From positions 661,001 through 725,000 of the forward strand of contig NZ_PGEP01000001.1 in assembly GCF_002797445.1 (NCBI RefSeq): 64,000 nt of DNA. Reading direction: 5' to 3'. Every line of letters starts with the position of its first letter. Position 1 is the first letter of the stretch. The DNA comes from Acidovorax sp. 69. Lineage in GTDB: Bacteria; Pseudomonadota; Gammaproteobacteria; Burkholderiales; Burkholderiaceae_C. A program made the translations under genes and the position numbers. A model generated the notes under the pieces. It ran no database searches and was not told the DNA's origin. It saw only the letters and a program-made list of their open reading frames with translations. Shown one piece after another: positions 20,319 to 61,990 of the stretch.

Positions 20319-20803
20319 TGCCATGCCGCCTGTTTGCGCAGCACAAAGGGTGCTGACGGGGTGGTGGGGGTGGGGTTGGCGTTGTTCCATGTGCCTCGTA
20401 TTTCCTTGCCGCAACTGCCATCCACCACCCGGCCTGTCCAGGTGGCGCTGATGTTTGTTCCGTTGATTGATTCTTCCAGAGTCAGATCGCCCTCGTCGAT
20501 ATCGCCACTGACCTGCGCCGTGACGCCCTGGTGCTGGGCCGTGCCCCGCACGCTTTGTGCCAGTTCTGGGTGGGGCCCCAGCCGCAAGGTGGCTGCAATG
20601 GGTTTGGCATCCGGCGCTGCACCTTGCAGCTCTGCGTGCCACAGCCCCTGCAGGTGCTGGTGGTTCATATCGGCGGGCGCGGGGCACACCGTGCCAGATT
20701 TTGAGGGGTTTTGACTGCTTGCGCTTGTAGGATAAGCGCTGATAGCTATCAAAAACACAGCGTTTACCAGCGGCGAAGCCAGGGGGTGTATAGCGCGGTC
20801 CAT
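20315..20803 (-). CDS. Small exported protein upstream of pldA; signal peptide encoded by a dispersed element
   Basis: The family is not recognised. The product has 162 residues; ATG at 20803 is followed by a signal peptide whose hydrophobic core is VFLIAISAYPTSASS. The mature part (about 130 residues) resembles a small beta-barrel or lipocalin-like domain (LQGLWHAELQGAAPDAKPIA, ISATWTGRVVDGSCGKEIRG) with two cysteines. Residues 15-32, the signal-peptide core and cleavage region, are encoded by dispersed element copy E3. The gene overlaps pldA by 4 bases, so it may act with the phospholipase at the outer membrane; that is inference. Confidence 0.7.
   Translation of the reverse strand: MDRAIHPLASPLVNAVFLIAISAYPTSASSQNPSKSGTVCPAPADMNHQHLQGLWHAELQGAAPDAKPIAATLRLGPHPELAQSVRGTAQHQGVTAQVSGDIDEGDLTLEESINGTNISATWTGRVVDGSCGKEIRGTWNNANPTPTTPSAPFVLRKQAAWQ
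20709..20761 (+). repeat. Small dispersed palindromic element, copy E3, inside a coding region
   Basis: Blocks TTGACTGCTTGCGCTTGTAG and GATAAGCGCTGATAGCTATC plus the A-rich tail match the element. Read on the minus strand it encodes residues 15-32 of the small exported protein, including FLIAISAYPTSASS. Confidence 0.8.
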
Positions 20804-20816
20804 GGATCTGGGGGCA

Positions 20817-22928
20817 TCAGGCCGTGGGGGAGGGATTGCCGCTGGCAGCCCCATTGGCAGCCCCATTTGCGGCCGTCGTGGCCAGGGCCTTGGCGGCAAA
20901 CTCTGCGCGCAAGGCCTTGAGCTTTTCGCGCGGGTCTTCGCGGGCCGTGGTTTTGTCCAGCCCCATCTCGGCGATGAAACGGCTCGGCTGTGCCGCCACC
21001 ATCTCGCGGCCTTTCTTGCGCCGCTTGGTCCAGCTCACGGCCAAGGTGCGCTGGGCACGCGTGATGCCCACGTACATCAGGCGGCGCTCTTCCTGCAGGC
21101 GCTGCAGGGTGTCGTCGCTCACCTTGTGCTGGCGGCCTTCGTCGTCGTCGAGCTTGAAAGGCAGCATGCCTTCGGTCACACCCACCAGAATCACGTGCGG
21201 CCACTCCAGCCCCTTGCTCGCGTGCAAGGTCGACAGTGTCACCATGTCCTGGTCTTTCTCGCGCTCGCTGATGGTGGACAGCAGCGCGATCGTCTGTGAC
21301 ACCTCCAGCAGGCTCTTGGTCTCCTTGGCCACCACCGCGCCCGAGGTGTCGTCGATCTGCCCGCCCGCGCGCTGGGCCATCCAGTCGCAGAACTCCATCA
21401 CGTTGCTCCAGCGGGCGGCGGCCACTTTCTCGCTGTCTTCGTTGTCGTACAGGTGCTGCTCGTAGCCAATCTCTTTGAGCCAGTCGTTCAAGAAGGTGCG
21501 CGCATCTTCTGCACCGTGGGTGCGGCGCGCGCTGTATTCCAGGTAGTTGATGTAGCGGCCAAATTCATGCAGCCCGTCCATGGCGCGCTTGGGTACCGCA
21601 GCGGGCAGCATGCCGTTGAACAGCGCGCCAAACATGCTTTGCTTGTGCTGCGTGGCAAACGCGCCCAGCGATGCCAGCGTGGTGTGGCCGATGCCGCGCT
21701 TGGGCGTGGTGATGGCGCGCAAAAATGCCGGGTCGTCATCGTTGTTGATCCACAGGCGAAACCAGGCGCACAGGTCCTTGATTTCGGCGCGGTCAAAAAA
21801 GCTGGTGCCGCCCGACACCTTGTAGGGGATGTTGACTTTGCGCAGCGCCTTCTCGAACGGCTTGGCCTGGTGGTTGGCGCGGTACAGGATGGCAAAGCTC
21901 TTCCAGTCCGGCGGTGGGTTGCTGGCCGCGCGCAGGCTCTGGATGCGGGCCACTGCACGCTCGGCCTCGTGCTCTTCGCTGTCGGCATCGACCACGCGCA
22001 CGGGCTCGCCTTCGCCCAGTTCGCTGAACAGCGTTTTGGGAAACAGCTTTGGGTTGGGCCCGATCACGTTGTTGGCTGCACGCAGGATTGCGCTGGTAGA
22101 GCGGTAGTTTTGCTCCAGCTTGATGACCTTGAGCGCCGGAAAGTCGATGGGCAGTTTCTTGAGGTTGTCCAGCGTCGCGCCGCGCCAGCCGTAAATCGAC
22201 TGGTCGTCGTCGCCCACTGCGGTGAAGTGCCCCCGTTCGCCCACCAGCAGCTTGAGCAGTTCGTACTGCGTGGCGTTGGTGTCCTGGTACTCGTCCACCA
22301 GCACATGGCTGAGCAGTGCCTGCCACTTTGCGCGCACTTCCGGAAAGTCGCGCAGCAGGCGCAGCGGCATGCCGATCAGGTCGTCAAAGTCCACGCTCTG
22401 GTAGGCCGCCAGGCGCTCTTCGTAGCGCGCCATCAGCGTGGCAATGATGCGTTCGTTATCGTCGGCCGCCTGGGCCAGCGCCTGCTCTGAGGTCAGGCCC
22501 ATGTTCTTCCATTTGCTGATGACCCACTGCCACTGGCGGGCCGTGGCCATGTCGGTGGTGCCGCCCGAGGCTTCTTTCAGGATGCCCGTTACGTCGTCGG
22601 CATCGAGGATGCTGAACTGCGGTTTGAGGCCCAGCACCGAACCGTCTTCGCGCACCATGCGCACGCCCAGGGCGTGGAAGGTGCACACCAGCACTTCTTT
22701 GGCACGGCGGCCAATGAGGTGCTGCGCACGCTCGCGCATTTCGGAAGCGGCCTTGTTCGTGAAGGTGATGGCCGCAATGCGCTTGGGCTCCATCCCTTTT
22801 TCGATCATGTGGGCGATCTTTTGTGTGATCACCCGCGTCTTGCCCGAGCCCGCGCCGGCCAGCACCAGGCAGGCCCCGTCGGTGTAGTGAACAGCCTGGA
22901 GCTGGGCGAGATTGAGACCGGCAGACAT
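20817..22928 (-). CDS. rep: ATP-dependent DNA helicase Rep
   Basis: This 703-residue superfamily-1 helicase shows every motif of the Rep/UvrD/PcrA group: Walker A LVLAGAGSGKTRV, motif Ia TFTNKAASEM, DEYQDTNATQYELL (motif II), GDDDQSIYGWRGA (III), LEQNYRST (IV), TLHASKGLEWPHV (V) and EERRLMYVGITRA (VI). The wording is closest to Rep (LNLAQLQAVHYTDGACLVLA). Rep moves 3' to 5' on single strands and helps forks past bound proteins. The C-terminal 50 residues are a low-complexity Ala/Asn tail. It begins only 14 bp from the exported-protein gene, on the same strand and upstream of it. Confidence 0.93.
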   Translation of the reverse strand: MSAGLNLAQLQAVHYTDGACLVLAGAGSGKTRVITQKIAHMIEKGMEPKRIAAITFTNKAASEMRERAQHLIGRRAKEVLVCTFHALGVRMVREDGSVLGLKPQFSILDADDVTGILKEASGGTTDMATARQWQWVISKWKNMGLTSEQALAQAADDNERIIATLMARYEERLAAYQSVDFDDLIGMPLRLLRDFPEVRAKWQALLSHVLVDEYQDTNATQYELLKLLVGERGHFTAVGDDDQSIYGWRGATLDNLKKLPIDFPALKVIKLEQNYRSTSAILRAANNVIGPNPKLFPKTLFSELGEGEPVRVVDADSEEHEAERAVARIQSLRAASNPPPDWKSFAILYRANHQAKPFEKALRKVNIPYKVSGGTSFFDRAEIKDLCAWFRLWINNDDDPAFLRAITTPKRGIGHTTLASLGAFATQHKQSMFGALFNGMLPAAVPKRAMDGLHEFGRYINYLEYSARRTHGAEDARTFLNDWLKEIGYEQHLYDNEDSEKVAAARWSNVMEFCDWMAQRAGGQIDDTSGAVVAKETKSLLEVSQTIALLSTISEREKDQDMVTLSTLHASKGLEWPHVILVGVTEGMLPFKLDDDEGRQHKVSDDTLQRLQEERRLMYVGITRAQRTLAVSWTKRRKKGREMVAAQPSRFIAEMGLDKTTAREDPREKLKALRAEFAAKALATTAANGAANGAASGNPSPTA

Positions 22929-23215
22929 GGGGGGAGGGAAAAAGCGGAGAAGTCAGGGGAGGGGCACAAGGCCGCCACGGGGAGGCTGGGCGTCTGGCAA
23001 GGCGGTTGCCAGGTGCGCAATGATACCGGCGGGCCATTGGGGTGGGAGGGCGACGGTGCGGCTGACGCTGCCCTGACGGGTGTGCCCGCCAGGGCCGGGT
23101 AACGCGCCCGGCTGCGGGAAACCCCGCTAGGGGCCGTGTGGACACACTTTGATACTGGTGCGGCAGCTTCCACCCCACTGGTGGAGCGCCCTGCACCGAC
23201 ACAACTGCTCCCACC

Positions 23216-24475
23216 ATGACCCATTTTGATTTTGTATTGGCCCCCGTGTCTTGTTTCCTGAGGGCGCACCGCAGCGCCAGGCGCTTGGTGGCCGCCGGTG
23301 GCCTGCTGATGGGTGCGGTGCTGGCGCCACCCGTTCATGCCCAGATCGGCAGCACCACCCCCGTGCGCATTGGCGTGGTGGGGCCATTTACCGGGCCGTC
23401 GGCCGACTTTGGCGTGCCCATGCTCAATGGCATCAAGCTGGCCGTGGACGAGATCAATGCCGTGGGCGGTTATCTGGGGCGGCCGCTGGAGCTGGTGGTC
23501 AAGGACGACACGGCCGACCCGGAACAGGGCCGCAAGGTGTCGCAAGAGCTGCTCAATGACAAGGTGGTTGCCACCATCGGGTTTTGCAACACGGGCGTGG
23601 CGCTCAAGTCCATCGACCTGTTCCAGGAGGCCAAGAGCCCGCTCATCGTGCCCTGCTCCACTGGCACGGCGGTCACGGCTAAATACCCTTCGCCGCAAAG
23701 CTATATCTTTCGGGTGCAGGGGCGTGATGCGCTGCAGGCGCCCTTCATGGTGGAGGACATCGTCAAGCGGGGCTGGGACAAGGTGGCCATCTTTGCCGAC
23801 ACCACGGGCTACGGCGAGGGCGGCTACGCCGACGTGGTGGCCGCCCTGGCTGCCAAGAACCTCAAGCCCGTGTATGTGTCGCGGTTTGCGTTGGGCGTGA
23901 AAGACCTCTCGGCCGAACTCACGGCCGCCCGCAGCGCGGGTGCCAATGTGATCTTCAGCTACACCGTGGGCCAGGAAAACGCCGTGATTGCCAATGGCAA
24001 GAAGGCCTTGAACTGGAAGGTGCCCCAGGTGGGGCCGTGGACACTGTCGTTCCCCTTTTTCCTGGAGGGCGCGAAGGACGCGGCCGAAGGGGCGCTCATG
24101 GTGCAGACCTTTGTCGCCGAGCCCAGCAACGAGCGCCGCGCGTCTTTCCTGTCGAGCTACACCCGCAAATACCAGCGCAAGGTGGCCGTGCCCATGGCCG
24201 CAGCCAACGCGTACGACGCCACTTACCTGCTGATGTACTCGTTCCTGGGTATCCGCGACGGCAATCTGAACGGCAAGGCCATCAAGGAAGCGCTCGAAGG
24301 CAAGATGAAGACTTACTACGGCGTGGTGTCTACCTACGAAAAGCCGTTCAGCGTGGAGGACAAGGACGCGATCACCCGCAACATGCTCGTGATCGGCATG
24401 GTCAAGAACGGAGCCATCACCTTTGCCTACCCCGAAGACGCCAAACGCAATCTCATCATCCAGCGCAAGCAGTAG
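23216..24475 (+). CDS. Branched-chain amino acid-type ABC transporter substrate-binding protein (orphan)
   Basis: The 419-residue periplasmic protein has a long N-terminal leader (hydrophobic LVAAGGLLMGAVLAPPVHAQ) and a LivK-type type-I binding fold: PVRIGVVGPFTGPSADFGVP, LNGIKLAVDEINAVGGYLGR, LELVVKDDTADPEQGRKVSQ. No permease or ATPase gene is adjacent, so it must share a transporter encoded elsewhere. Its ligand is unknown; relatives bind amino acids, amides or aromatic acids. Next on the same strand, 115 bp on, is an AEC carrier, which is not a usual partner. Confidence 0.88.
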   Translation: MTHFDFVLAPVSCFLRAHRSARRLVAAGGLLMGAVLAPPVHAQIGSTTPVRIGVVGPFTGPSADFGVPMLNGIKLAVDEINAVGGYLGRPLELVVKDDTADPEQGRKVSQELLNDKVVATIGFCNTGVALKSIDLFQEAKSPLIVPCSTGTAVTAKYPSPQSYIFRVQGRDALQAPFMVEDIVKRGWDKVAIFADTTGYGEGGYADVVAALAAKNLKPVYVSRFALGVKDLSAELTAARSAGANVIFSYTVGQENAVIANGKKALNWKVPQVGPWTLSFPFFLEGAKDAAEGALMVQTFVAEPSNERRASFLSSYTRKYQRKVAVPMAAANAYDATYLLMYSFLGIRDGNLNGKAIKEALEGKMKTYYGVVSTYEKPFSVEDKDAITRNMLVIGMVKNGAITFAYPEDAKRNLIIQRKQ

Positions 24476-24590
24476 CTCCGTGTGGGTGGTGCGCTGCTCG
24501 CCGTTGGCGAGGGCGCCCCACTGACTTTGCGCTGACCATCCCCGCAGGCCGCGCACCGGTCTGCCAAGCGCAGCACAGACAATAGCGCCC

Positions 24591-25544
24591 GTGCTCTCCG
24601 TCCTTCTTATCACCTTCCCCTTCTTCGCCCTGGTGCTCTGCGGCTATCTGGCTGCCAGGCGCGGGGTGCTGCCCCAGCCCGCCATCCCGGGGCTGAATGC
24701 CTTCGTGCTGTACTTTGCGCTGCCGTGCATGCTGTACCGGTTTGGCGCCAGTACGCCCATTGGGCAACTGCTGGACCCGGCCGTGGCGGGCGTGTATGGA
24801 CTGTGCGCGCTGGTCATGGTGGGCGCCACGGTGGCGCTCACGCGCAAGGCGCATATCGGCTGGAACGACGCGGCCTTTGGCGCGCTGGTAGCGGCCTTTC
24901 CCAACACCGGCTTCATGGGGGTGCCGCTGCTGGTGGCGCTGCTGGGCGCGCAAAGCGCGGGCCCGGCCATCGTCACCATTGTGGTGGACATGGTCATCAC
25001 CAGCTCGCTGTGTATTGCGCTGTCGCGCCTGGATGGCGCGGGTACCCACGGCGTGGGTGTGGCATTGAAGAGCGCCTTCAAGGGCATGGCGACCAACCCC
25101 ATGCCCTGGTCGATCGCGCTGGGCGCGCTGGCATCGGCCCTGCAGTCCAAGCTGCCCGTCCCGGTGGACAAGACCATCGCCATGCTGGCTGACGCGGCCT
25201 CTCCCGTGGCGCTGTTCACCATCGGCGCAGTGCTGGCCCGCTCGCAGATGAACCAGCACGAACAGGTGCCTGCACGCGACTACGTGCCGGTGGCTCTGGC
25301 CAAGTTGCTGGTCCACCCGCTGCTGGTGTGGAGCGTGGGCACTGCCGCCATGGCGCTGGGCGTGCCGCTCACGCCGTTTGCGCTCACCGTGCTGGTGCTG
25401 CTGTCAGCGCTGCCCAGCGCCAGCAATGTGTCGCTGCTGGCGGAAAAATTTGGTGCCAACAACGGGCGCGTGGCGCGCATCATTCTGGTGTCTACCGCAC
25501 TGGCGTTTCTGAGCTTTTCGGGGGCCGTGGCTCTGTTGACCTGA
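24591..25544 (+). CDS. AEC-family (auxin efflux carrier-type) transporter
   Basis: This 317-residue inner-membrane protein has about ten helices in two inverted halves. It shows the family pattern FALVLCGYLAARRGVLPQPA, NAFVLYFALPCMLYRF, FPNTGFMGVPLLVALLG and LLSALPSASNVSLLAEKFGA. Bacterial members move carboxylates such as malate or malonate. I chose the GTG at 24591 because it begins the first helix directly; no ATG is available there. The gene is followed at once by dispersed element E4. Confidence 0.88.
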   Translation: MLSVLLITFPFFALVLCGYLAARRGVLPQPAIPGLNAFVLYFALPCMLYRFGASTPIGQLLDPAVAGVYGLCALVMVGATVALTRKAHIGWNDAAFGALVAAFPNTGFMGVPLLVALLGAQSAGPAIVTIVVDMVITSSLCIALSRLDGAGTHGVGVALKSAFKGMATNPMPWSIALGALASALQSKLPVPVDKTIAMLADAASPVALFTIGAVLARSQMNQHEQVPARDYVPVALAKLLVHPLLVWSVGTAAMALGVPLTPFALTVLVLLSALPSASNVSLLAEKFGANNGRVARIILVSTALAFLSFSGAVALLT

Positions 25545-25545
25545 A

Positions 25546-25602
25546 TGCTCTGTTTTTGATAGCTTTCTGCGCTTTGTTCATAAGCGGCTGAGGCTGCAAA
25601 TG
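25546..25602 (-). repeat. Small dispersed palindromic element, copy E4 (inverted)
   Basis: Read on the plus strand it is the reverse complement order: CTCTGTTTTTGATAGCTTTC, TGCGCTTTG, TTCATAAGCGGC and GGCTGCAAAT. It begins 2 bp after the AEC stop codon, between convergent genes. Confidence 0.75.
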
Positions 25603-25624
25603 CCACCCAGAGCCCTTTGGGGCC

Positions 25625-27760
25625 TCAAATCGTCAACGGGTCCACGTCCACCAGCCAGCGCACCACGCCCTTGTGCTCGGGCTGGCTGCGTGTGGTTTGC
25701 AGCACGGGCTGCCATGCCACCAAAAAACGCTGCAGTGCGGCGCGGCTGCCGCTTTCCATCAGCATCTGCGCGCGTTCCACATTGGCCACGCGCTGGATGG
25801 TGAGTGGCACGGGCGGGAACAAGGTCACCACCTCCAGCCCCGGCAGGTCCGCCGCATGGGCGGCAGCGGTGGCGGCCCTCAGAAAACCCTGGGCGACCTC
25901 CTGCGTGCGCGCATCGGCCCGCACCAGGGCCTGGTAGGCGAAGGGTGGCATGGCGGCCTCTTCGCGCTCCTTCAATTGCTGGGCGGCAAAAGCCTCGTAG
26001 TCGTGCTTGCGCAGCGCCTCGTACACGGCATGTTGGGGGTGAAAGCTCTGCACCCACATCTCGCACGGCGTGCCCTGCGCGGCCATATACGCCGCGTCGC
26101 GCCCGGCCCGGCCAGCGGCCTGCATCAACAGCGCAAACAGCCGTTCGGGTGCGCGAAAGTCGCTGCTGAACAGCGCGCCATCGGGCTGCACGGCGGCCAC
26201 CAGCGTGATGCGGCGGAAGTCATGGCCTTTGGCGATCATCTGCGTGCCCACCAGCACATCCACTTCGCCGGAATGCACCTGCGCCAGTTGCGCCTCCAGC
26301 GCGCCCTTGGCTTTGGTGGTGTCTGCGTCGATGCGGGCGATGCGGGCAGGGTTGCGGTCGGGGCGCTGCACATTGCGCAGCAGGGCGGCCAGTTCTTCTT
26401 CCAGTTGTTCGGTGCCCCGGCCCATGGGATGAATGTCGGGGCTGCCGCAGGTGGGGCAGTGAAACGGCACACGCACGGTGTAGCCGCAGTGGTGGCAGCG
26501 CAGGGTGCGATCGGTTTTGTGAAAGACCTGGTGTGCGCTGCAGTGCGGGCAGTCGCTTTTCCAGCCGCAATCCACGCAGTGCAGCACGGGCGCGTAGCCC
26601 CGGCGGTTGAGCAACACCATGCTTTGCTCGCCGCGCGCCACGCGCTCGGTGATGGCCTGCAGCAGCGGGGCGCTGAACACCGCGCGCCGGGGCTGCTGGT
26701 TCATGTCCACCCGCCGCACACGGGCCAGGGCGCCTGCGCCGATGCGGCTGGGCATGTGCAGCCGCACATAGCGCCCGCCTTCGGGGTCTTCGGGTGTGGG
26801 CGGGCGGCTGGCGTGCCAGCTCTCCAGTGAGGGCGTGGCCGAACCCAGGAGGACTTTGGCACCCTGCTCGCGCCCCCGCCAGATGGCCAGGTCGCGCGCC
26901 GAGTAGCGGGCGCCTTCTTGCTGCTTGTAGCTGGGGTCGTGCTCCTCATCGACCACGATGAGCTTGAGCCCCGGCAGGCTGGCAAACACGGCCATGCGTG
27001 TACCGAGCACGATGCGCGCCGTTCCGTTGTGCGCGGCCAGCCAGCTCTTGAGGCGCTGGGGGTTGGTCATGCCGCTGTGCAGCGACACCACGGCGCCCGG
27101 GCCAAAGCGCGGTGCAAAGCGGCTGACAAAACGCTCTTCGAGCTGGGGCGTGAGGTTGATCTCGGGCACCATCACCAGCGCCTGGGTAGGGAAAGCGCCC
27201 TCGGGGTCGGCCTCCAGCACTTCCTGCACGCAGCGCAGATACACCTCGGTCTTGCCGCTGCCGGTGCTGCCAAACAGCAGGAAGGGACCATTTTCCGAAG
27301 AAATTCGGGCTCTAGCGCTTTCCTGTTCTGCGGTAAGTGCTATGTTTTGAATAGCATCTTGCGAGTCCCCTGCCGCGAGCGCCGGGCGGCGCAGGCGCCG
27401 CGCCAGTTGCTCAGGCTGCAGGTCGCGCAGTTGGGGAGGCAGGGCGGCCAAAGCGACCTCGCCCAGCGCACGCTGGTAATAGCGTGCTGCAAACGCCACC
27501 AGGCGGCGCCAGGGCATGTCCAGCGGCGCCACGCCTTCCAGCACCCCGGCAATGGCGCGCAGGGTGGCGCCATCGGGCAGCTCGCCCGTCGCTTCGTCGG
27601 CATCCCACACCACGCCCAGCACTTCGCGTTTACCCAGTGGCACACGCACCAGCGTGCCGGGAGCAAGCGGGCGCTCACTGGCGTAACTCAGCAGGTCGCC
27701 CACACCGCTGTGCGCCGGGGTGTGCAAGGCAACGTGGACGATGGCAGTGTGGATAGGCAC
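25625..27760 (-). CDS. priA: Primosomal replication restart helicase PriA
   Basis: The 711-residue protein has the PriA N-terminal DNA-binding domain (TPAHSGVGDLLSYASERP, RVPLGKREVLGVVW), Walker A (GSTGSGKTEVYLR) and DEEH (VVDEEHDPSYKQQEG). The eight-cysteine zinc region has CVDC, CPHC, CHHC and CPTC. Helicase motifs V-VI (GTQMIAKGHDFRRITLVAAV, QAAGRAGRD) follow. PriA reloads the replisome at stalled forks. Just before Walker A, the region DAIQNIALTAEQESARARIS is encoded by a sequence resembling the dispersed element (copy E5), in a linker normally variable between PriA proteins. ATG at 27760 gives the usual start. Confidence 0.95.
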   Translation of the reverse strand: MPIHTAIVHVALHTPAHSGVGDLLSYASERPLAPGTLVRVPLGKREVLGVVWDADEATGELPDGATLRAIAGVLEGVAPLDMPWRRLVAFAARYYQRALGEVALAALPPQLRDLQPEQLARRLRRPALAAGDSQDAIQNIALTAEQESARARISSENGPFLLFGSTGSGKTEVYLRCVQEVLEADPEGAFPTQALVMVPEINLTPQLEERFVSRFAPRFGPGAVVSLHSGMTNPQRLKSWLAAHNGTARIVLGTRMAVFASLPGLKLIVVDEEHDPSYKQQEGARYSARDLAIWRGREQGAKVLLGSATPSLESWHASRPPTPEDPEGGRYVRLHMPSRIGAGALARVRRVDMNQQPRRAVFSAPLLQAITERVARGEQSMVLLNRRGYAPVLHCVDCGWKSDCPHCSAHQVFHKTDRTLRCHHCGYTVRVPFHCPTCGSPDIHPMGRGTEQLEEELAALLRNVQRPDRNPARIARIDADTTKAKGALEAQLAQVHSGEVDVLVGTQMIAKGHDFRRITLVAAVQPDGALFSSDFRAPERLFALLMQAAGRAGRDAAYMAAQGTPCEMWVQSFHPQHAVYEALRKHDYEAFAAQQLKEREEAAMPPFAYQALVRADARTQEVAQGFLRAATAAAHAADLPGLEVVTLFPPVPLTIQRVANVERAQMLMESGSRAALQRFLVAWQPVLQTTRSQPEHKGVVRWLVDVDPLTI
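27301..27356 (+). repeat. Probable dispersed element, copy E5, inside priA
   Basis: AAATTCGGGCTCTAGCGCTT at one end closely matches copy E7. The other end (TAAGTGCTATG and TTTTGAATAGC) is diverged. The copy keeps the priA reading frame open. Confidence 0.5.
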
Positions 27761-27866
27761 GGGCTATGAGGGCAGAGGGGCGCTTGGGTGGTGTTGTGGA
27801 TGTTACGTAGAGGTTTGGCTGCTAAGTGCTTGATTTGAATCGGGAGTGGGAGTAATCCCGAATTTC

Positions 27867-27875
27867 TGTGGATAA
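27867..27875 (-). promoter_or_regulatory. DnaA box 1 (TTATCCACA)
   Basis: This is a perfect match to the classical DnaA box on the minus strand, within TGTGGATAACTTTGTTGA. Confidence 0.7.
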
Positions 27876-40280: not shown

Positions 40281-40305
40281 GCGGGCCTTTTTGGGTCTTT
40301 TGAAC

Positions 40306-40359
40306 AAAATTGGCTTACAGCGCAGATAAATAAAGCGCTAGCAGCTATCAATAAGTGAG
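40306..40359 (+). repeat. Small dispersed palindromic element, copy E6, in the paa operon
   Basis: AAAATTGGC, CAGCGCAG and AAAGCGCTAGCAGCTATCAA match the element. It lies in the 115-bp paaA-paaB gap and would be transcribed as part of the operon, so its hairpin may affect the mRNA. Confidence 0.8.
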
Positions 40360-40395
40360 CGTTTCACCGTCCCTAACGATTGGACCAGGCACACC

Positions 40396-53367: not shown

Positions 53368-53390
53368 GAGGCGGCGAAGCCACCCAGGGG

Positions 53391-54016: not shown

Positions 54017-54042
54017 GGGCATGTTCCTTGTCGTCTTCCTGG

Positions 54043-55695
54043 TCAGACGGCTGCGGCCGTGGCACGGGCCAGTGCGCTGCGCACCGCCGCCTCGGTGGGC
54101 GTGCGCCAGCGTGCGCACACATGCTGGTCGGGTCGCACCAGGACCACGGTGCGCGGCAGCGCATCCAGCCGCTGGGCGGCCAGCGCCTGGTGGTCGATCA
54201 CATCGATACCGATCTGCAGCACCTTCACGCCGGGCAGGTCATGGGCCCACGCAGGGGCTGAGCCAAACACCAGCAGCGTGAAGTCCCGCCCCAGCTCGCG
54301 CAGCAGCCAGGTAGGCTGGCCTTGCTTCGTCAACGGCGCGTCCAGGAGCACGGCGCCGGGCACCTGTGTGCCCACAAACGCATCGGTGTCGGGCGTGTTC
54401 AGCGGCGATGTGTGCAGGGTGGCCGGCACCGACAGGCGCCCGCTGTTGACGATGCGCCGTGCAAAGGCGTGTTCACGCGCCAGATGCAGTGCCGCGTCGC
54501 GGAACAGGCGGCTCACCTCGCTCTTGGGCGTGATGAAGTCGGTGGCGCGGGTGGAGTTGCACAGGTTCTCGTCGGCCGCGTACTCACGCTCCGGGCCGTA
54601 CGTATTCACCAGTTCCGGGCTGGCGCGGCCCTGGAGCACCCAATCGAGCTTCCAGGCAAGGTTCTCAGCATCCTGCACACCGCTGTTGGCGCCGCGTGCG
54701 CCAAAGGGCGACACACCGTGCGCGCTGTCGCCTGCAAACACCACGCGGCCGTGCACAAAGCGGTCCAAGCGCAGGCAGGCAAATGTGTAGACGCTCGCCC
54801 AGTCCAGTTCAAACTGGGCGTCTGCGCCCAGCAGCGCCTTCACGCGGGGGATGATGTTCTCGGGCTTTTTCTCTTCCTCGGGGTCGGCGTCCCAGCCCAG
54901 CTGGAAGTCGATGCGCCACACGTTGTCGGGCTGGCGGTGCAGCAGCACGCTCTGGTTGGGATGAAAGGGTGGGTCGAACCAGAACCAGCGCTCGGTGGGG
55001 AAGTTCGCCTCATCCGCCAGCTTCACATCGGCGATCAGGAAGCGGTCCTGAAAGATGCGCCCTTTGCTCTCCAGCCCCAGCATCTGCCGCGTGGGCGAGC
55101 GCGCGCCGTCGCAGGCCACCAGCCATTGCGCATCCATCTGGTAGGCGCCCTCGGGCGTGTCGATGCTCAGCAGCGCGCCGTCCGCGCGGCTTTGCACAGC
55201 CGTCACCTTGTTGTGCCAGCGGATGTCGATGCCCGGCAGCTGCAGCGCACGCTCCACCAGATAGGCCTCGGCGTAGTACTGCTGCAGGTTGATGAAGGCG
55301 GGGCGCTCGTGGCCCGATTCGGGAAGCAGGTTGAACTCATACAACTGCTCGTCTTTGAGGAACACCTTGCCCACGTTCCACGACACGCCCTTGTCCACCA
55401 TGCGCTGGCCCACGCCCAGGCGGTCCCAGATCTCCAGCGTGCGCTTGGCAAAGCAGATGGCGCGCGAGCCGATGGAGAGCTTGTGGTCGTTGTCCAGCAC
55501 CACCACACGCTGCCCGCGCTGGGCCAGGTCGATGGCCAGCGAAAGGCCCACGGGGCCCGCACCCACGATCACGACCGGATGCTGCGCGGGCGTGGCGCTG
55601 TCTTGGTCGGGTGAACGAACGTAGCCGAAGTCGATGGCCTGCACCTCGGCGCCACTGGCGTGGAAGGCCTCTCGGGGAATGTCTCTGGGGTTCAT
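54043..55695 (-). CDS. FAD-dependent aromatic monooxygenase (MhpA/PheA-like)
   Basis: The 550-residue flavoprotein hydroxylase has the FAD motif PVVIVGAGPVGLSLAIDLAQ, the DG-type WLVACDGARSPTRQMLGL and the second FAD motif RVVFAGDSAHGVSPFGARGA. A C-terminal thioredoxin-like domain follows as in phenol and 3-(3-hydroxyphenyl)propionate hydroxylases. It should add one oxygen to an aromatic acid or phenol using NAD(P)H. The substrate is not defined by sequence. GGAGGAGACA before ATG 55695 is a strong ribosome-binding site. It is second in an operon after the MBL gene and before DUF2783. Confidence 0.9.
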   Translation of the reverse strand: MNPRDIPREAFHASGAEVQAIDFGYVRSPDQDSATPAQHPVVIVGAGPVGLSLAIDLAQRGQRVVVLDNDHKLSIGSRAICFAKRTLEIWDRLGVGQRMVDKGVSWNVGKVFLKDEQLYEFNLLPESGHERPAFINLQQYYAEAYLVERALQLPGIDIRWHNKVTAVQSRADGALLSIDTPEGAYQMDAQWLVACDGARSPTRQMLGLESKGRIFQDRFLIADVKLADEANFPTERWFWFDPPFHPNQSVLLHRQPDNVWRIDFQLGWDADPEEEKKPENIIPRVKALLGADAQFELDWASVYTFACLRLDRFVHGRVVFAGDSAHGVSPFGARGANSGVQDAENLAWKLDWVLQGRASPELVNTYGPEREYAADENLCNSTRATDFITPKSEVSRLFRDAALHLAREHAFARRIVNSGRLSVPATLHTSPLNTPDTDAFVGTQVPGAVLLDAPLTKQGQPTWLLRELGRDFTLLVFGSAPAWAHDLPGVKVLQIGIDVIDHQALAAQRLDALPRTVVLVRPDQHVCARWRTPTEAAVRSALARATAAAV

Positions 55696-55723
55696 ATCTT
55701 TTGTCTCCTCCAGCTTCGGCGAC

Positions 55724-56680
55724 TCAGCCTTCCAGCGATTTCCACATTTGAATGTCGCGTTCAGCGGTCCAGATGCGCGGGTCCAGGTACTGCGTGGCTT
55801 CGTCATACGCGCGGGTCACGTCAAACGGCATGCAGTGGTTGAAGATGACCCACTGGCCGTACTTCGGCTGCAGCTTGGCAAAGGTGGCCTCGTACACCTT
55901 GCGCAGGTCTTCGCCTTGCGCAGCGCTGGCCTTCACGCTGTCGTACAGGTCGCTGATGAAGGCGCGCGTTCCGGCCAGGCCTGCCTGCACCTGCTCGGGC
56001 GTCTGCAGCGCGGCGCCCCGGCCTGGCACCAGCTTCTCGGGCTTCAGGGCTGCCAGGTTGTCCAGCGTCTGAGGCCAGTCCTTGAAATACGCATCGCCCG
56101 CATACGGCGTGGCGTCGAACTCCACCAGGTCGCCACTGAACAGGATCTTTTCCTGCGGCAGCCAGGCCACGGTGTCGCCCTTGGTGTGGCCCCGGCCCAG
56201 TTGCAGGATCTGCACTTCGAGTTTGCCCAGCCACAGGGTCATCTTCTTATTGAAGGTCATGGTCGGCCAGGTCAGGCCGTCGGGCACGCTCTCCACGTTC
56301 TGGAACAGGCGGGGGAAGCGGCCGATCTCGCTGTCCTTGTCGAACTGGCCCCGCTCCACGATCAGGTCGCGCGTGTCTTCGCTGGCAATGATGTGCTCGG
56401 CCCCATAGGCGCTGGCGCCCAGCACCCGCACGGCGTGGTAGTGGCTCAGCAGCACGTATTGGATGGGCTTGTCCGTCACCTCGCGGATACGGCGGATCAC
56501 GTCCTGCGCCATCACGGGCGTGGCCTGGGTGTCGATGACCATCACCGCGTCGTCGCCAATGATGATGCCGGTGTTGGGGTCGCCCTCGGCCGTGTAGGCA
56601 TAGGCGTGGTCGGAGAGCTTGTCGAAGCTCACCTTCTTGACTTCAAGGTCGGCGGCGGAGGCGAAGGTTTTGGTGGTCAT
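55724..56680 (-). CDS. Metallo-beta-lactamase-fold hydrolase with unusual metal motif
   Basis: The 318-residue protein has the MBL fold (AVMVIDTQATPVMAQDVIRR, TKGDTVAWLPQEKILFSGDL). The canonical HxHxDH motif reads HYHAVR in LLSHYHAVRVLGASAYG, so the aspartate and third histidine are replaced. It keeps two histidines and later candidate ligands (GRGHTKGD; SGDLVEFD), so it may bind one metal. It is the first gene of the monooxygenase operon and may hydrolyse a lactone or ester formed downstream of hydroxylation; this is inference. Confidence 0.88.
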   Translation of the reverse strand: MTTKTFASAADLEVKKVSFDKLSDHAYAYTAEGDPNTGIIIGDDAVMVIDTQATPVMAQDVIRRIREVTDKPIQYVLLSHYHAVRVLGASAYGAEHIIASEDTRDLIVERGQFDKDSEIGRFPRLFQNVESVPDGLTWPTMTFNKKMTLWLGKLEVQILQLGRGHTKGDTVAWLPQEKILFSGDLVEFDATPYAGDAYFKDWPQTLDNLAALKPEKLVPGRGAALQTPEQVQAGLAGTRAFISDLYDSVKASAAQGEDLRKVYEATFAKLQPKYGQWVIFNHCMPFDVTRAYDEATQYLDPRIWTAERDIQMWKSLEG

Positions 56681-56685
56681 GGTTT

Positions 56686-56752
56686 GAAATTCGTTATGAA
56701 TGAATTAATTTAACTAAACGGAATGTTTTGATGTTAGTCACGAAATTCGTTA
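56686..56752. promoter_or_regulatory. Direct repeats in the MBL/IclR shared promoter
   Basis: GAAATTCGTTA occurs at 56686-56696 and 56742-56752, in an AT-rich 140-bp divergent promoter, with TGAATGAATT and CTAATTCATT nearby. The sites are probable binding sites of the divergent IclR-family regulator. Confidence 0.5.
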
Positions 56753-56823
56753 ATGTCTAATTCATTTGTTTAGGTGAAAACCCGAAGGCGTTCGGGAATT
56801 GCTCCGGCGTGGACAATCACGCC

Positions 56824-57642
56824 ATGCCCACCCATGCCCCCGACTTGCCCCGCCCCGACGACGAAGACGACAGCAGCCCACGCAGCCCGCGCGGCATCCA
56901 GAGCGTGGAGGTCGGTGGCCAGCTGTTGAAGGTGCTGGCGCGCACCGGTCGCCGCATGGCGCTCAAAGACCTTGCGAAGGCTGCTGACATGACCGCTGCC
57001 AAGGCCCACCCTTACCTGGTGAGCTTCGGCAAGCTGGGCTTGATTGAGCAAGACGCAGTGAGCGGCCACTACGGCTTGGGCCCTTTGGCCATGCAGCTGG
57101 GTTTGATCAGCCTGCAGCAGGTAGACCCCGTGCGCCTGGCCATTGCCGAGCTGCCAGCGCTGGCCCAGCGCATTGGCTACACCGTGTCGGCCTCGGTGTG
57201 GGGCGACAGCGGCCCCGTCATCATCCGTGTCGAAGAAGGCCCCACGGCCGTGTACGTGGCCATGCGCCACGGCACCACCGCGTCGGTGCGGCACACGGCC
57301 ACGGGCAAGGTGTTTGCGGCCTTCGGCCCGCGCGAACGGGCCGCGGGTGCTCTAGCGGCAGAAGGGTTTGCAGGGGCGCTGGATGAGCCCGCGTTTGCGG
57401 CCGAGCTGGATGCTGTGCGCGTGCACCAAGTCGCAGAAGTCACGGATCAGCTTCTGCCTGGCATCAGCGCGCTGGCCACGCCGGTGTTTGACGGGTTTGG
57501 GCAGCTGGTGCTGTGCCTGGCGGTGATCGGGCCGAGTGCCACGCTGCAGACGGGGCCTGCGAGTTCGGCCGCGCGGCATTTGCGCGAGGCGGCGCGGAGT
57601 TTGTCGCAGCGGCTGGGCGCTGCCCAAGGCCCGCGCGCCTGA
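56824..57642 (+). CDS. IclR-family transcriptional regulator
   Basis: The 272-residue protein has a winged helix (VEVGGQLLKVLARTGRRMAL, DLAKAADMTAAKAHPYLVSF) and an IclR effector domain (RIGYTVSASVWGDSGPVIIR, TASVRHTATGKVFAAFGPRE, GISALATPVFDGFGQLVLCL). It is divergent from the MBL-monooxygenase operon and probably controls it. A GTG at 56809 would add five residues, but ATG 56824 is the better start. metY converges 11 bp after its end. Confidence 0.9.
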   Translation: MPTHAPDLPRPDDEDDSSPRSPRGIQSVEVGGQLLKVLARTGRRMALKDLAKAADMTAAKAHPYLVSFGKLGLIEQDAVSGHYGLGPLAMQLGLISLQQVDPVRLAIAELPALAQRIGYTVSASVWGDSGPVIIRVEEGPTAVYVAMRHGTTASVRHTATGKVFAAFGPRERAAGALAAEGFAGALDEPAFAAELDAVRVHQVAEVTDQLLPGISALATPVFDGFGQLVLCLAVIGPSATLQTGPASSAARHLREAARSLSQRLGAAQGPRA

Positions 57643-57653
57643 TTGGCAGGCGC

Positions 57654-58991
57654 TCAGGCCCCGCGCGCCAGCGCCTGGTCGATGTCCCACAGGATGTCGT
57701 CGAGGTCTTCAATGCCCACCGACAACCGCACCATGTCCGCGCTCACGCCCGCGCGGGCCAGTTCCTCTTCGTTCAGCTGGCGGTGGGTTGTCGATGCGGG
57801 GTGGATCACCAGCGTCTTCGCATCGCCGATGTTGGCGAGGTGGCTCAGGAACTCGCAGGCGTCGATGAACTTCTCGCCCGCCGCCGCGCCACCCTTCACA
57901 CCAAACGTGAGGATGCCGGAGGCGCCGGGTGTGCCGTCCACGGTGCGGAACTGCTTTTGCGCGAGGCCGTAGTACGGCGAATCCGGCAAACCGGGGTAGT
58001 TGACCCATGCCACCTGCGGGTGGCTTTGCAGAAACTTCGCCACGGCCAGCGCGTTGCGGCAGTGCTCGCGCATGCGCAGGTGCAGCGTCTCGGCGCCCTG
58101 CAGCAGCTGCCACGCGTTCATGGGCGAGAGCACGCCGCCAAAGGTGCGGTTGACCTCCATGCGCGCCTTCATGGTGTAGCCAAAGTCGCCAAAGGTCTCG
58201 TAAAACTTTACGCCGTGGTAGGCCCGGCTGGGCTCCACCATCTCGGGGAACTTGCCGTTGTCCCACGGGAATTGGCCGCCCTCCACCACCACGCCGCCCA
58301 TGGTGGTGCCATGGCCGCCGATGTATTTGGTGGCGCTGTGCACCACGATGTCGGCGCCCAGCGCCAGCGGGTTGCACAGGTAGGGGCTGGCCACCGTGTT
58401 GTCGATGATGAGCGGCACGCCGTGGGCATGTGCCACTGCGGCCACGGCCGCGATGTCGAGCACGTTGACCAGCGGGTTGCCGATGGTTTCGCCGTACACC
58501 GCACGGGTGTTGGGGCGCATGGCGCGCGCAAAGTTTTCGGTGTCGGCCGGGTCGACAAAGGTGGTCTCGATGCCCAGGCGGCTGAAGCCCACGCCCAGCT
58601 GCCCCACCGTGCCGCCATACAGCGTGCTGGCTGCCACGATGTGGTCGCCGGTCTTGAGGATGGCCAGCAGCGCCGCCATCTGCGCAGCCATGCCGCTCGC
58701 GCAGGCCAGGGCGGCGCGGCCGTTTTCAAGGCTGGCGATGCGCTCTTCCAACACCGCCACCGTGGGGTTGCTGATGCGGCTGTAGACGTTGCCAAAGGTC
58801 TGCAGGTTGAACAGGCTGCTGGCGTGTTCTGCGTTGTCGAACACAAAACTCGTCGTCTGGTGGATGGGCGTGGCGCGTGCGCCGGTCACAGGGTCGGGCT
58901 GCGCGCCCGCGTGAATGGCGCGGGTGCCAAAGCCGAAATTGCGGTCGGCGCCGCTGGCTGCGGGAGTGCTCTTCGAGAGGGGCTCGGTCAT
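57654..58991 (-). CDS. metY: O-acetylhomoserine sulfhydrylase (aminocarboxypropyltransferase)
   Basis: The 445-residue PLP enzyme belongs to the Cys/Met metabolism family. It opens FGFGTRAIHAGAQPDPVTGA and ATPIHQTTSFVFDNAEHASS, and the PLP-lysine lies in HSATKYIGGHGTTMGGVVVE. The longer length and the GKFPEMVEPSRAYHGVKFYE insertion are typical of MetY rather than MetB or MetC. MetY makes homocysteine from O-acetylhomoserine and sulfide, direct sulfhydrylation in methionine synthesis. It stands alone on the minus strand. Confidence 0.93.
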   Translation of the reverse strand: MTEPLSKSTPAASGADRNFGFGTRAIHAGAQPDPVTGARATPIHQTTSFVFDNAEHASSLFNLQTFGNVYSRISNPTVAVLEERIASLENGRAALACASGMAAQMAALLAILKTGDHIVAASTLYGGTVGQLGVGFSRLGIETTFVDPADTENFARAMRPNTRAVYGETIGNPLVNVLDIAAVAAVAHAHGVPLIIDNTVASPYLCNPLALGADIVVHSATKYIGGHGTTMGGVVVEGGQFPWDNGKFPEMVEPSRAYHGVKFYETFGDFGYTMKARMEVNRTFGGVLSPMNAWQLLQGAETLHLRMREHCRNALAVAKFLQSHPQVAWVNYPGLPDSPYYGLAQKQFRTVDGTPGASGILTFGVKGGAAAGEKFIDACEFLSHLANIGDAKTLVIHPASTTHRQLNEEELARAGVSADMVRLSVGIEDLDDILWDIDQALARGA

Positions 58992-59038
58992 GGCGGTGGC
59001 GCAGACGCTGCGCGGTGATGAAGTTGAAGGTTTTGAGT

Positions 59039-59093
59039 CAAATTGGCCTCTAGCGCTTATTCCATAAGCGCTAGTAGCTATTAATTTGCTAGT
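59039..59093 (+). repeat. Small dispersed palindromic element, copy E7
   Basis: AAATTGGCCTCTAGCGCTTA, TCCATAAGCGCTAGTAGCTA and TTAATTTGCTAGTA give one of the best copies. TAGCGCTTA and ATAAGCGCTA form the inner palindrome. It ends in the stop codon of the CoA-binding protein gene. Confidence 0.85.
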
Positions 59094-59604
59094 AAGGCAA
59101 CTGCCGCAGACGCTTGGCGCTGATGACCTTGGTGTTCACGCCCATCCAGCCCAGCCCGCCAAACAGCCGTGCGTGTTCGATCTTCACGCAGCGGTTCTGG
59201 ATCACCTGCAGCCCGGCGGCTTCGGCACGTTGCCCGGCCGCCTCGTTGAACACACCCAGTTGCAGCCACAGACACTTTGCGCCGATGGAAATCGCTTCGT
59301 CCGCCAGCGGCGGGATGTCTTCGCTCTTGCGAAAGCAGTCCACCATGTCGATCTTTGCGCCCTGCGCCGCCAGTGCGGCAGCGGCTTCGGTGACGCTGGC
59401 GTAGGCCGTCTCGCCCAGAATTTGGCCGCCCTCACGCGCGACCAGTGGATTGACCGGAACGATGCGGTAGCCATGCGCCTGCATGTACTTGGCCGCGAAG
59501 TAGCTGGGCCGGTGCCATTGCGGCGAAAGGCCCACCACCGCAATCGTGCGGCAGTGCGTGAGCAGGTCACGCAGGGTGCTGATGGTGTCGGGGGTGTGGA
59601 GCAT
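59089..59604 (-). CDS. CoA-binding-domain protein (YccU-like)
   Basis: The 171-residue protein is a single Rossmann-type CoA-binding domain: CRTIAVVGLSPQWHRPSYFA, AAKYMQAHGYRIVPVNPLVA, DMVDCFRKSEDIPPLADEAI, KCLWLQLGVFNEAAGQRAEA and a final cysteine (IQNRCVKIEHARL). It matches E. coli YccU and relatives, which bind acyl-CoA or CoA with an unsettled role. ATG at 59604 begins the family alignment; the frame upstream is not coding. Element E7 adjoins its stop codon. Confidence 0.88.
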   Translation of the reverse strand: MLHTPDTISTLRDLLTHCRTIAVVGLSPQWHRPSYFAAKYMQAHGYRIVPVNPLVAREGGQILGETAYASVTEAAAALAAQGAKIDMVDCFRKSEDIPPLADEAISIGAKCLWLQLGVFNEAAGQRAEAAGLQVIQNRCVKIEHARLFGGLGWMGVNTKVISAKRLRQLPY

Positions 59605-59746
59605 GCAAACAGTGTACGCATGCGGTGCGGCCTTGCACCCCACCCTGGCCGTGGGTCTCGTGCGTCGACTTGCGCTCGGTGTCTTAGCCCCTGCAGTCTG
59701 GTCGCCATGGCAGCGACGGGCTTGTCCGCCCGTGCCCCGCATCCAT

Positions 59747-61990
59747 CTACAACTGGGCGATGGTGGCGCGCACTTCGTCCACGCTGAGCACTTCGGTCAG
59801 CACCATGGGCGGCTTGCCAGGGCGGTAGAACACATACACCGGCACGCCGCTGCGGCCCAGGGCGGCCAGGGCGGCGGTGATGGCGGGGTCGCGCCGCGTC
59901 CAGTCGGCGCGCAGCAGGGCCACGTTCTTGGTTTGCAGGTCTGCGATGACGTCGGCGTGGGCCAGGGTGGTCTTCTTGTTGTATTGGCAGGTGACACACC
60001 AGGCGGCGGTGAAGTCCACAAACACCGGGCGGCCCGTGGCCACGATCTGCTCAGCCGTGCCAGGCACCCATGGCTGCCAGCCGGTGGTGGACGCCTGTGT
60101 GGCGCTCGGGGTGGTCGGCACGCCGGTGATGTGGGGCGCAAACGCCCAGACCAGCAGCGCCATCGTGGCCAGCGACACTGAGCCCATCCACATGCGGGCG
60201 CGGCCCGCCAACGACAGGGCCCACACCACCAGCGACAGGCCCACCAGCAGGATCAGCAGCGCACCTGCGCCATCGATGCCGCTTTGCTGCCCCAGCACCC
60301 ACACCAGCCAGACCACGGTGGCGAACATCGGAAACGCCATGAGCTTGCGGAACGTGTCCATCCACGCGCCGGGGCGTGGCAGGGCACGGGCCACGGCGGG
60401 GATAAAACTGGCCGCCAGAAACGGCAGCGCCAGCCCCAGGCCCAGCGCCGCAAACACGGCCAGCGCCTGGGGTGCCGGCAGCGTGGCCGTGAGGCCCAGC
60501 GAGGCGCCCATGAACGGCGCGGTGCAGGGTGATGCCACGGCCACGGCCAGCACGCCGGTCAAAAACGAATCCGCCACGGGGTGGCGCGCCTGCAGACTGG
60601 CCACGGAGGATGGCAGGAAATGCCCGAACTCGAACAGGCCCGCGAGGTTGAGTGCAATCAGTGTGAACAGCGCTGCCAGCGATGCCACCACGGCGGGCGA
60701 CTGCAATTGAAAGCCCCAGCCAATGGCGTCGCCCGCAGCGCGCAGGCCCAACATGAGTGCGCCCAGGGCGATGAACGACAGCACCACGCCCAAGGTGTAG
60801 GCGATGCCGCTCAGGCGGTGCGCAAGGCGGTCCTGCGCATGCTGGGTGAAACCCACCACCTTGATCGCCAGCACGGGGAACACGCAGGGCATGAGGTTGA
60901 GGATGAGGCCACCCAACAAGGCGCCCAACAGCGCGGCAGTGAGGGTGAGCGACGAAGCGCCGGTGTTTGCCGTGGGCGCGCCCGTGCCACCTGCCTGCGC
61001 TGCATTGGCCTTGAGTGCGGCCTCCAGTGCGGGCGACACGCTGGCCACTGACGCTGCCGGGGGCCAGGTGCCCAGCACCTTCAGCTCGGCCCGGTAGCCG
61101 GTGCGCGCGTCGGGGCCGATGCTGTGCGCGGCACTCTGCTCGGCCAGCACCACGGGCATCAGGGTCGGGCTGTTGCTTCGTTGGGACGACAGGGGGATCT
61201 TGGCCGTCCACACGCTGCCGTTCCACGTTTGCGTCCACGCCGCAGCGTTGTCGATGACCTCGGCGGTTTCGGGGAACAGGTCCAGCGTCTTGCCGCGCAG
61301 TGCCACGGGCAGGCCCTGCACGCTGATCTGCAGTGCCTTTGCATCGTTGGACATCTGGGCCTGGCTGTCCGGCACGATGCCGGTAGTGCCCGCCAGCACG
61401 GGCCGGGGTTGCGCCTTGGCCGCCGCCTCAAAGGCAGCACCGTTCAGTGCCGTGGTGCTCTGGATGGGCAGTTGCAGCGTGAATTCGCCTTCTTCGGGAA
61501 TGCACTCCTTGCGGCAGACCAGCCACGATGCGCGCAGCTTGATGGTGGCGTCCTTGGTGAGCGGGCCGGGGGCAAAGGTGCTGGCCACGGTGACGGGCAC
61601 GGGCAACAGCACCGTGCCTTCATAGCCATAGTTGGCCAGCGTGCCGATGGGGATTTTTTTGGGCAGGGGCCAGGCGATCTCGCCCGCGTCCAGCCCGGCG
61701 GGCAGCTGCCAGGCCAGGTCGGTGGGCAGGCCGGAGTCGCCGGGGTTCTTCCAGTAGGTGTGCCACTCGGGCTGGTGGGTGATTTGCAGGCCCAGCCACA
61801 GCGGCTGGCCGGGCACCACGCCCTGGGGGGCATGGGCCAGCAGCTCGGCACGCACATAGGGCGTGGTGACCACGCTGGTGCCTTGTCCGCTGGTTTTAGG
61901 GCTAAATTGGGCGTTAGCGCTTGTCCATAAAGCGCTGGCAGCTATCAAAAGCAGAGTAACTGCAAGGCGGTGGAGCAGGCGATGGGGCAT
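59747..61990 (-). CDS. ScsB/DsbD-like thiol:disulfide reductase; signal peptide encoded by a dispersed element
   Basis: The 747-residue protein moves reducing power from cytoplasmic thioredoxin to the periplasm. After a signal peptide (cleavage about residue 27) comes a periplasmic domain of the ScsB type (HQPEWHTYWKNPGDSGLP, AGEIAWPLPKKIPIGTLANY) with two cysteines in VCRKECIP. The eight-helix DsbD membrane region follows (LNLMPCVFPVLAIKVVGF; SPCTAPFMGASLGLTATLP), with redox cysteines in PC motifs. A C-terminal thioredoxin domain has WCVTC. Residues 11-30 are encoded by dispersed element E8, giving VTLLLIAASALWTSANAQF. ATG at 61990 is the start that precedes this signal. Confidence 0.9.
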   Translation of the reverse strand: MPHRLLHRLAVTLLLIAASALWTSANAQFSPKTSGQGTSVVTTPYVRAELLAHAPQGVVPGQPLWLGLQITHQPEWHTYWKNPGDSGLPTDLAWQLPAGLDAGEIAWPLPKKIPIGTLANYGYEGTVLLPVPVTVASTFAPGPLTKDATIKLRASWLVCRKECIPEEGEFTLQLPIQSTTALNGAAFEAAAKAQPRPVLAGTTGIVPDSQAQMSNDAKALQISVQGLPVALRGKTLDLFPETAEVIDNAAAWTQTWNGSVWTAKIPLSSQRSNSPTLMPVVLAEQSAAHSIGPDARTGYRAELKVLGTWPPAASVASVSPALEAALKANAAQAGGTGAPTANTGASSLTLTAALLGALLGGLILNLMPCVFPVLAIKVVGFTQHAQDRLAHRLSGIAYTLGVVLSFIALGALMLGLRAAGDAIGWGFQLQSPAVVASLAALFTLIALNLAGLFEFGHFLPSSVASLQARHPVADSFLTGVLAVAVASPCTAPFMGASLGLTATLPAPQALAVFAALGLGLALPFLAASFIPAVARALPRPGAWMDTFRKLMAFPMFATVVWLVWVLGQQSGIDGAGALLILLVGLSLVVWALSLAGRARMWMGSVSLATMALLVWAFAPHITGVPTTPSATQASTTGWQPWVPGTAEQIVATGRPVFVDFTAAWCVTCQYNKKTTLAHADVIADLQTKNVALLRADWTRRDPAITAALAALGRSGVPVYVFYRPGKPPMVLTEVLSVDEVRATIAQL
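61903..61960 (+). repeat. Small dispersed palindromic element, copy E8, inside a coding region
   Basis: AAATTGGGCGTTAGCGCTTG, TCCATAAAGCGCTGGCAGCT and ATCAAAAGCAGAGTAAC form a full copy, closely like E7. Read on the minus strand it encodes residues 11-30 of the ScsB/DsbD-like protein, the signal-peptide core and cleavage site. Confidence 0.85.

Follow-up and report, generated by a model that had tools for sequence, protein, structure and literature searches.

A dispersed palindrome in Acidovorax that probably became the signal-peptide core of unrelated exported proteins

Introduction

Can a dispersed DNA repeat become a working part of unrelated proteins? The question is raised by a 64-kb window of an Acidovorax sp. 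69 contig (“the window” denotes this whole stretch of DNA), where copies of a short palindrome lie between genes and also at the 5' ends of two genes, one encoding a ScsB/DsbD-like protein (copy E8) and the other a small conserved protein before pldA (copy E3). An original prediction, made from the window alone, held that a mobile palindrome of about 55 bp carries a ready-made export signal that both proteins have adopted. Here, we analysed the window, searched the rest of the genome (G000) and compared the genes concerned with their relatives. We consider it probable that a dispersed palindrome, coding in some genes, became the signal-peptide core of exported proteins. The origin of new signal peptides is usually hidden by their fast evolution, and this element makes it directly testable.

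Results

One element in three apparent signal peptides

The element is an imperfect palindrome of 66–75 bp with the core TTTTGATAGCTGCTAGCGCTT..AAGCGCTAGAGGCCAATTT, slightly longer than originally claimed. A 75-column profile (R1), trained on 24 copies from elsewhere in the genome and excluding E3, E8 and a third copy, L003, places E8 and E3 in one family with the copies between genes (Table 1). With nhmmer, 211 copies were found at E<1e-3 in 747 kb of genome stretches, a non-random sample because the stretches were picked mostly for holding copies; the same 747 kb reversed gave three matches at E≤10, the best with E 0.55. Scores of 61.5 bits for E8, 40.2 for E3 and 43.8 for L003 compare with 9.1 bits for the best reversed-sequence match, which excludes chance and low complexity for E3 and E8, and the original view that the nucleotide match goes beyond low complexity is borne out.

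E3 and E8 are read in the same frame and orientation, each at the 5' end of an open reading frame (ORF), as first described. In this frame, hereafter the LIAAS frame, the element reads approximately TTVLIAASALxxSARGQF, a hydrophobic run followed by small residues (commonest residues L-I-A-A-S-A-Y/L-x-I/S-S-A-R-G-Q-F), and the reading is one or two changes away from an A-x-A cleavage site. The core is open in the LIAAS frame in 119 of 198 near-full copies. Mean best nine-residue hydropathy is 2.0 in this frame and at most 1.6 in the others, and a value of at least 2.0 is reached by 55 of the 119 open copies as against 22 of 84 in the next frame.

Three unrelated, apparently exported proteins form the firm cases, one more than originally predicted, and in each of them the element, in one frame and one orientation, appears to supply the hydrophobic core and the likely cleavage region. 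In the E8 protein it covers residues 11 to 35 (VTLLLIAASALWTSANAQF onward, from V11), the preceding MPHRLLHRLA coming from outside the element, and in the E3 protein coverage starts at NAVFLIAISAYPTSASSQ. The third case, L003 (G000:1625450), was spotted among the first 30 copies; it reads MKNTIVLIAASALFTCASA/GNVQIQVLDR in the same orientation and frame, its core match is perfect (21/21 bases), and its mature protein resembles neither the E3 nor the E8 protein and has only sub-threshold Pfam matches. The likely cleavage sites (SANA/Q, SASS/Q and CASA/G) are where the three differ most from the element consensus. The small E3 gene is apparently real, its reading frame being open in 25 of 25 full-length genus orthologues, and its product (20315-20803) has no match in Pfam or NCBIfam.

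Firm signal peptides thus number three among the 211 surveyed copies. Two look-alikes were not counted: LolA (G000:1533537; 20.0 bits), because its LIAASA-like segment is conserved in element-poor relatives too, and HupE/UreJ (3956565), which initially resembled a signal-peptide case at 19.5 bits. Matches in GlmU, RarA and LigA are likewise weak (18–22 bits).

Descent of the signal-peptide copies

Comparison of orthologous sequences indicates that the three signal-peptide copies are old, genus-shared and largely vertical in descent. The E3 protein has matches in 30 of 40 genus genomes, and all 25 full-length genus loci (L209-L233) contain the element, with E-values no higher than 8.2e-5. Five further loci (L234-L238), being partial or broken, were excluded; an element lies close by in four of these. 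Within the family, the protein has matches in 57 of 200 genomes, 54 of these outside the genus, and 28 loci from the 54 genomes were examined, nine with the element (E<1e-3) and 19 without. Also in other genera, nine in-frame, stop-free copies (plus two with a stop) were inspected; a coding signal lies downstream in two (L382 and L387), both E3-family orthologues. Among 29 orthologues of L003 (the distant paralogue L268 set aside), the element is present in 24 at E<1e-3 and in one more at E 0.001. Of the four without it, three (in G064, G098 and G090) have different N-terminal codons before the same mature start, GNVQIQVLD.

For ScsB, the best 80 of 589 loci include 21 with the element (E<1e-3), all at the same residue; among these 80, the closest named loci are mostly Acidovorax (83–91% identity), from which the genus is taken to be Acidovorax, and a FastTree tree gives five changes. 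Four changes are obtained for E3 on a weakly supported, long-branched tree. By eye, most element-free orthologues have signal-peptide-like N-termini, some of them in all three families, which agrees with the original prediction, and in element-free or eroded relatives the signal peptide starts at about the same distance from the mature protein. The ScsB gene of Acidovorax sp. Root219 holds an eroded remnant, and other genomes show no trace; eroded remnants in element-poor relatives suggest that the adoption is old. Vertical sharing of the codons, had it come with unrelated intergenic copies, was named at the outset as evidence against the prediction: descent is indeed vertical, whereas the intergenic copies clearly belong to one family with the coding ones.

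Element load and the E3 signal peptide

In the 30 genomes with an E3 protein, presence of the element in its signal peptide follows the genomic load. All nine genomes with at least 63 core matches carry it there (E 2.3e-8 or better), whereas at E<1e-6 none of the 21 genomes with at most 54 core matches does (Fisher test, 7e-8, the cut-offs having been set after seeing the data and kinship being uncorrected). The pattern would arise if coding copies follow the resident family, or if lineages rich in the element preserved both.

Core counts differ about a hundredfold within one genus code, from 1–2 in G061, G064, G090 and G098 to 218–231 in G000 and G060.

The element inside enzymes

Open frames around the 211 copies were scored by a codon model for which the long ORFs of these stretches served as training set; gene calls combine open frames, codon scores and homology. 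Of 210 copies, 22 have a best frame that is coding on either side of the element, ten in the LIAAS frame and six, five and one in three opposite-strand frames, although three of the 22 (457037, 2992782 and 4077971) look by eye like antisense shadows. All eight intragenic proteins tried match solved enzyme structures on both flanks of the element. In the comparison of MoeA with the E. coli enzyme, a gap of about 29 residues coincides with the element; the net insert is +11 residues in acyl-CoA dehydrogenase, +7 in PurL and +3 in NAD synthetase; no net insert is seen in the CCA-adding enzyme, TrpF or CDP-glucose dehydratase, and in formate dehydrogenase (FdhA) the element lies outside the aligned parts. 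EarP (with two copies) and 3-hydroxyisobutyryl-CoA hydrolase are confirmed by NCBIfam. Because the element is also in frame in MoeA, PurL, FdhA, EarP and acyl-CoA dehydrogenase, and uses four frames, it is not a dedicated export module. The proposal of a ready-made mobile export signal is not supported: the same frame serves in enzymes without a known export role, other frames are used too, and firm signal peptides are few.

The case for gain or loss of the element as a unit is strongest in moeA. Of 39 loci, those of G098, G090 and G064 are cleanly without the segment, two (L363 and L378) are shortened and one (L362, in G061) carries a loop of different sequence. An element match at E<0.01 is found somewhere in 32 of the 39, and two loci (L295 and L297) keep the segment but have lost the match. 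When 17 chosen rows are aligned as DNA, the element appears as a segment of about 66 nt that is present or absent between conserved codons. G098, G090 and G064 have two core matches each, whereas two members of their genus have 218 (G000) and 231; G090 also has one match to the reversed control.

Further observations concern single genes. The EarP arginine rhamnosyltransferase gene (L173; G000:3207788 and 3208247) has two copies in opposite orientation, both apparently in frame, and an Hsp70-like gene (L196; G000:4443364 and 4443873) likewise holds two in-frame copies in opposite orientation. In the CCA-adding enzyme (L195; G000:4423074), the element-filled loop is two residues longer than in G064, G090 and G098 and no longer than in other match-free relatives, as if the element had replaced a loop rather than been added to it. 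A protein that looks like aconitase by eye (L156; G000:2468296) has a C-terminal tail, SSAYLESTSSYQN, that is apparently element-encoded.

The family in the window and the genome

Genome-wide, the core TTGATAGCTRYYAGCGCTT (19 bases, up to two mismatches) has 218 matches and its reversed control none, and a profile search gave at least 150 element places (150 of 2534 candidates scored). The majority of the surveyed copies are intergenic, and the GC content of the seven best window copies is 0.39-0.50. Rfam has no match in the window at the gathering score; when 61700-62100 was searched permissively, the one match obtained was sub-threshold and fell outside the element.

The original prediction took the copies at 12065, 40306 and 59039 to be intergenic. 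None is coding on both sides, and two of them overlap ORF ends by 8 bases (Table 1); the copy at 59022-59096 shares its 8 bases with the 3' end (last 8) of ORF 59089-59742. In this copy, the LIAAS frame continues without a stop into the downstream gene, but the 16 codons ahead of that gene score as non-coding, and the copy was therefore left out of the signal-peptide count. The diverged copy at 25544-25621 begins at the final base of the stop codon of ORF 24591-25544.

Table 1. Copies of the element and associated genes in the window (bit scores and E-values from profile R1).
Feature	Coordinates	Strand	Evidence and remarks
E8	61886..61960	-	74.1 bits, E 3.6e-17; LIAAS frame
Likely signal peptide MPHRLLHRLAVTLLLIAASALWTSANA of ScsB/DsbD-like protein	61910..61990	-	Sequence only; cleavage inferred from A-N-A/Q motif
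ScsB/DsbD-like gene	59747..61990	-	747 aa from ATG; DsbD_N, DsbD_TM, Thioredoxin_7 (Pfam scan)
E3	20690..20764	-	51.7 bits, E 2e-11; LIAAS frame
Likely signal peptide MDRAIHPLASPLVNAVFLIAISAYPTSASS of small protein before pldA	20714..20803	-	Sequence; start and cleavage site uncertain
Small conserved protein before pldA, 162 aa	20315..20803	-	Between helicase ORF and pldA ORF
UvrD/Rep-like helicase ORF	20817..22928	-	Helicase and pldA names from ORF sequences and original prediction, no scan
Intergenic copy	59022..59096	-	66.2 bits; between ORFs 57654-58991 and 59089-59742
Copy taken as intergenic	40289..40363	-	56.4 bits; no frame over copy with positive coding score
Copy upstream of ORF 11554-12054 (-)	12047..12121	-	41.7 bits; covers first 8 bases of ORF
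Extra copy, absent from original prediction	7405..7479	-	34.4 bits; overlaps 3' end of ORF 6394-7419 (+)
Extra diverged copy, absent from original prediction	25544..25621	+	24.5 bits, E 2e-4

Discussion

The findings make the following scenario probable. A small, apparently non-autonomous repeat would spread, or would once have spread, across several genera of the family. Most copies would have come to lie between genes, and some would have landed inside ORFs and stayed there because several frames of the element are often stop-free. A copy near the 5' end of the gene of an exported protein could then have provided the h- and c-regions of a signal peptide, the host supplying the start codon and the basic n-region, and would subsequently have been inherited with the gene while the cleavage site was tuned from SARG to SANA, SASS or CASA. 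The encoded segments would direct export. Kinship of the copies, their common frame, conserved ORFs, orthologues lacking the element and the clean moeA difference are all shown here, whereas export by these segments, gain before loss at the individual sites and the way in which the repeat spread are inferred.

Several observations weigh against this account. Of 68 copies that have an ATG close by, 20 have it in the signal-peptide frame and 17 and 31 in the other two (68 of 72 matches, four further ATGs of already counted copies being omitted and nested ATGs in G000 kept); an enrichment in the signal-peptide frame is therefore unsupported, and its absence suggests that adoption is rare. The relation to element load has exceptions, with weak E3 signal-peptide matches in G039 (23 core matches, E 7.6e-4) and G050 (no core match, E 4.5e-4) and no element in the E3 signal peptide of G003 (54 core matches). 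Remnants with ATAGC at the same codons occur in genomes with 0–9 core matches (L392, L393, L410, L416 and L417), so that the copies would be older than the load pattern suggests. The mature G is preceded by 19 residues in L003 and equally in L261, which lacks the element; as the signal peptides are no longer than others, simple insertion into a working signal peptide would require later trimming. Finally, no mobilising enzyme was found in a search that covered the Y1 transposase family only, and no target duplication could be called, the flanks of filled and empty moeA sites, compared by eye, being too diverged.

The foremost alternative, which we regard as unlikely, is that the element acts on the level of DNA or RNA at gene borders, as a hairpin, terminator or regulatory site, with selection on the DNA and an incidental overlap with signal peptides. 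The predominance of intergenic copies fits this explanation, as do the structures of three folded intergenic copies (z -2.6 to -3.9) and the strong hairpin retained by L003 (-16.4 kcal/mol), but hairpins are weak in E3 (z -1.1) and E8 (z -0.5), and the median is -11.3 in 23 coding copies against -14.5 in 181 others (p 0.03; score-matched p 0.09). The codons point both ways. ATA, with a share of 7.3% among the Ile codons of long ORFs in the genome stretches, is kept at the core in 24 of 27 (E3), 15 of 15 (ScsB, chosen from 22) and 20 of 25 (L003) element-bearing orthologues, as selection on the DNA would predict. Synonymous-site constraint is mixed across the three genes: identity in the element exceeds that downstream in E3 (0.836 vs 0.688) and L003 (0.768 vs 0.667), levels that some downstream windows also attain (8 of 111 and 36 of 219, respectively), whereas in ScsB it is not above the rest of the gene (0.763 vs 0.749). 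The shift of the cleavage region from the element consensus toward A-x-A also speaks against this alternative.

A more far-reaching version of the signal-peptide account would have the palindrome give rise to signal peptides repeatedly throughout a bacterial family, its coding copies undergoing concerted evolution with the other copies of the genome. We find this rather doubtful. If it were true, evolution of the repeat would change the signal peptides of unrelated exported proteins in concert. Bearing on it, a strong match in the E3 signal peptide was found only in the tested element-rich genomes, element-poor relatives having eroded remnants or nothing.

It is very unlikely that events ran in the opposite direction, with an ancestral signal-peptide segment giving rise to the dispersed element. 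The E3-family signal peptide does retain LIA with ATAGC codons in some genomes with 0–1 core matches, so that a coding copy can persist where the other copies are missing, but the element occupies genes in four frames and three unrelated signal peptides, is present or absent as a unit in moeA, and has left no trace in some E3 and L003 family N-termini and at many ScsB loci. Convergence of low-complexity signal peptides on the repeat, by chance or selection, is hardly credible, for although LolA cautions that weak matches can mislead, the nucleotide statistics already contradict it and the matches use the uncommon codons TTG ATA GCT.

Taken as the recruitment of a repeat into signal peptides, the case exhibits repeated DNA becoming protein, since the same element is found as an intergenic repeat, as a clean enzyme insert and as the apparent signal peptide of three proteins, with element-free relatives as controls. 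It also serves as a warning that the repeat can mislead start-site annotation and signal-peptide alignments in this bacterial family.

Repetitive extragenic palindromic (REP) sequences and bacterial interspersed mosaic elements (BIME), served by REP-associated tyrosine transposases (RAYT), are dispersed, mostly intergenic palindromes, and REP flanks the Y1 transposase gene. Here, the only Y1 transposase gene found in the genome has no element nearby (no core match with up to six substitutions in 3,282 bases) and has homologues across 33 of 34 genomes irrespective of element load, and we reject it as the driver. Miniature inverted-repeat transposable elements (MITE) have terminal inverted repeats and a target-site duplication, often TA.

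Three further systems are close to the present one. Betaproteobacterial repeat elements (BRE) are dispersed in Acidovorax, Polaromonas and other Comamonadaceae, with some copies in coding sequences (Hot 2011, PMC3110155), but as described they are about 90 bp long, average 69% GC in Bordetella and are sometimes tandem, which sets them apart from an element of 66–75 bp and 39–50% GC. Rickettsia palindromic elements are reported from intergenic positions and, in frame, from conserved protein genes (PMC10969869, PMC2229807) and are alike in being small palindromic repeats with such in-frame copies; they differ in their length of about 150 bp and their unrelated host, and the Acidovorax element is additionally found in apparent signal peptides. 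The third is RU-2, a Yersinia palindromic repeat within the predicted signal peptide of YPO1552 (Delihas 2007, PMC2759123); related sequences in other genera carry repeat-unrelated signal peptides there, and a frame of the enterobacterial RU-1f gives predicted membrane segments (PMC2759123).

A literature search with limited coverage of subscription papers found no description of the present family. In-frame palindromes in genes (Rickettsia) and a repeat in a predicted signal peptide (Yersinia RU-2) are already on record, the latter as a partial precedent. What appears to be new is the element family itself, its use in one frame in three unrelated conserved proteins and the matched element-free relatives: where RU-2, a 168-bp repeat, is described from one main signal-peptide locus, the Acidovorax element offers three unrelated proteins in one frame, each followed across dozens of loci with and without the repeat.

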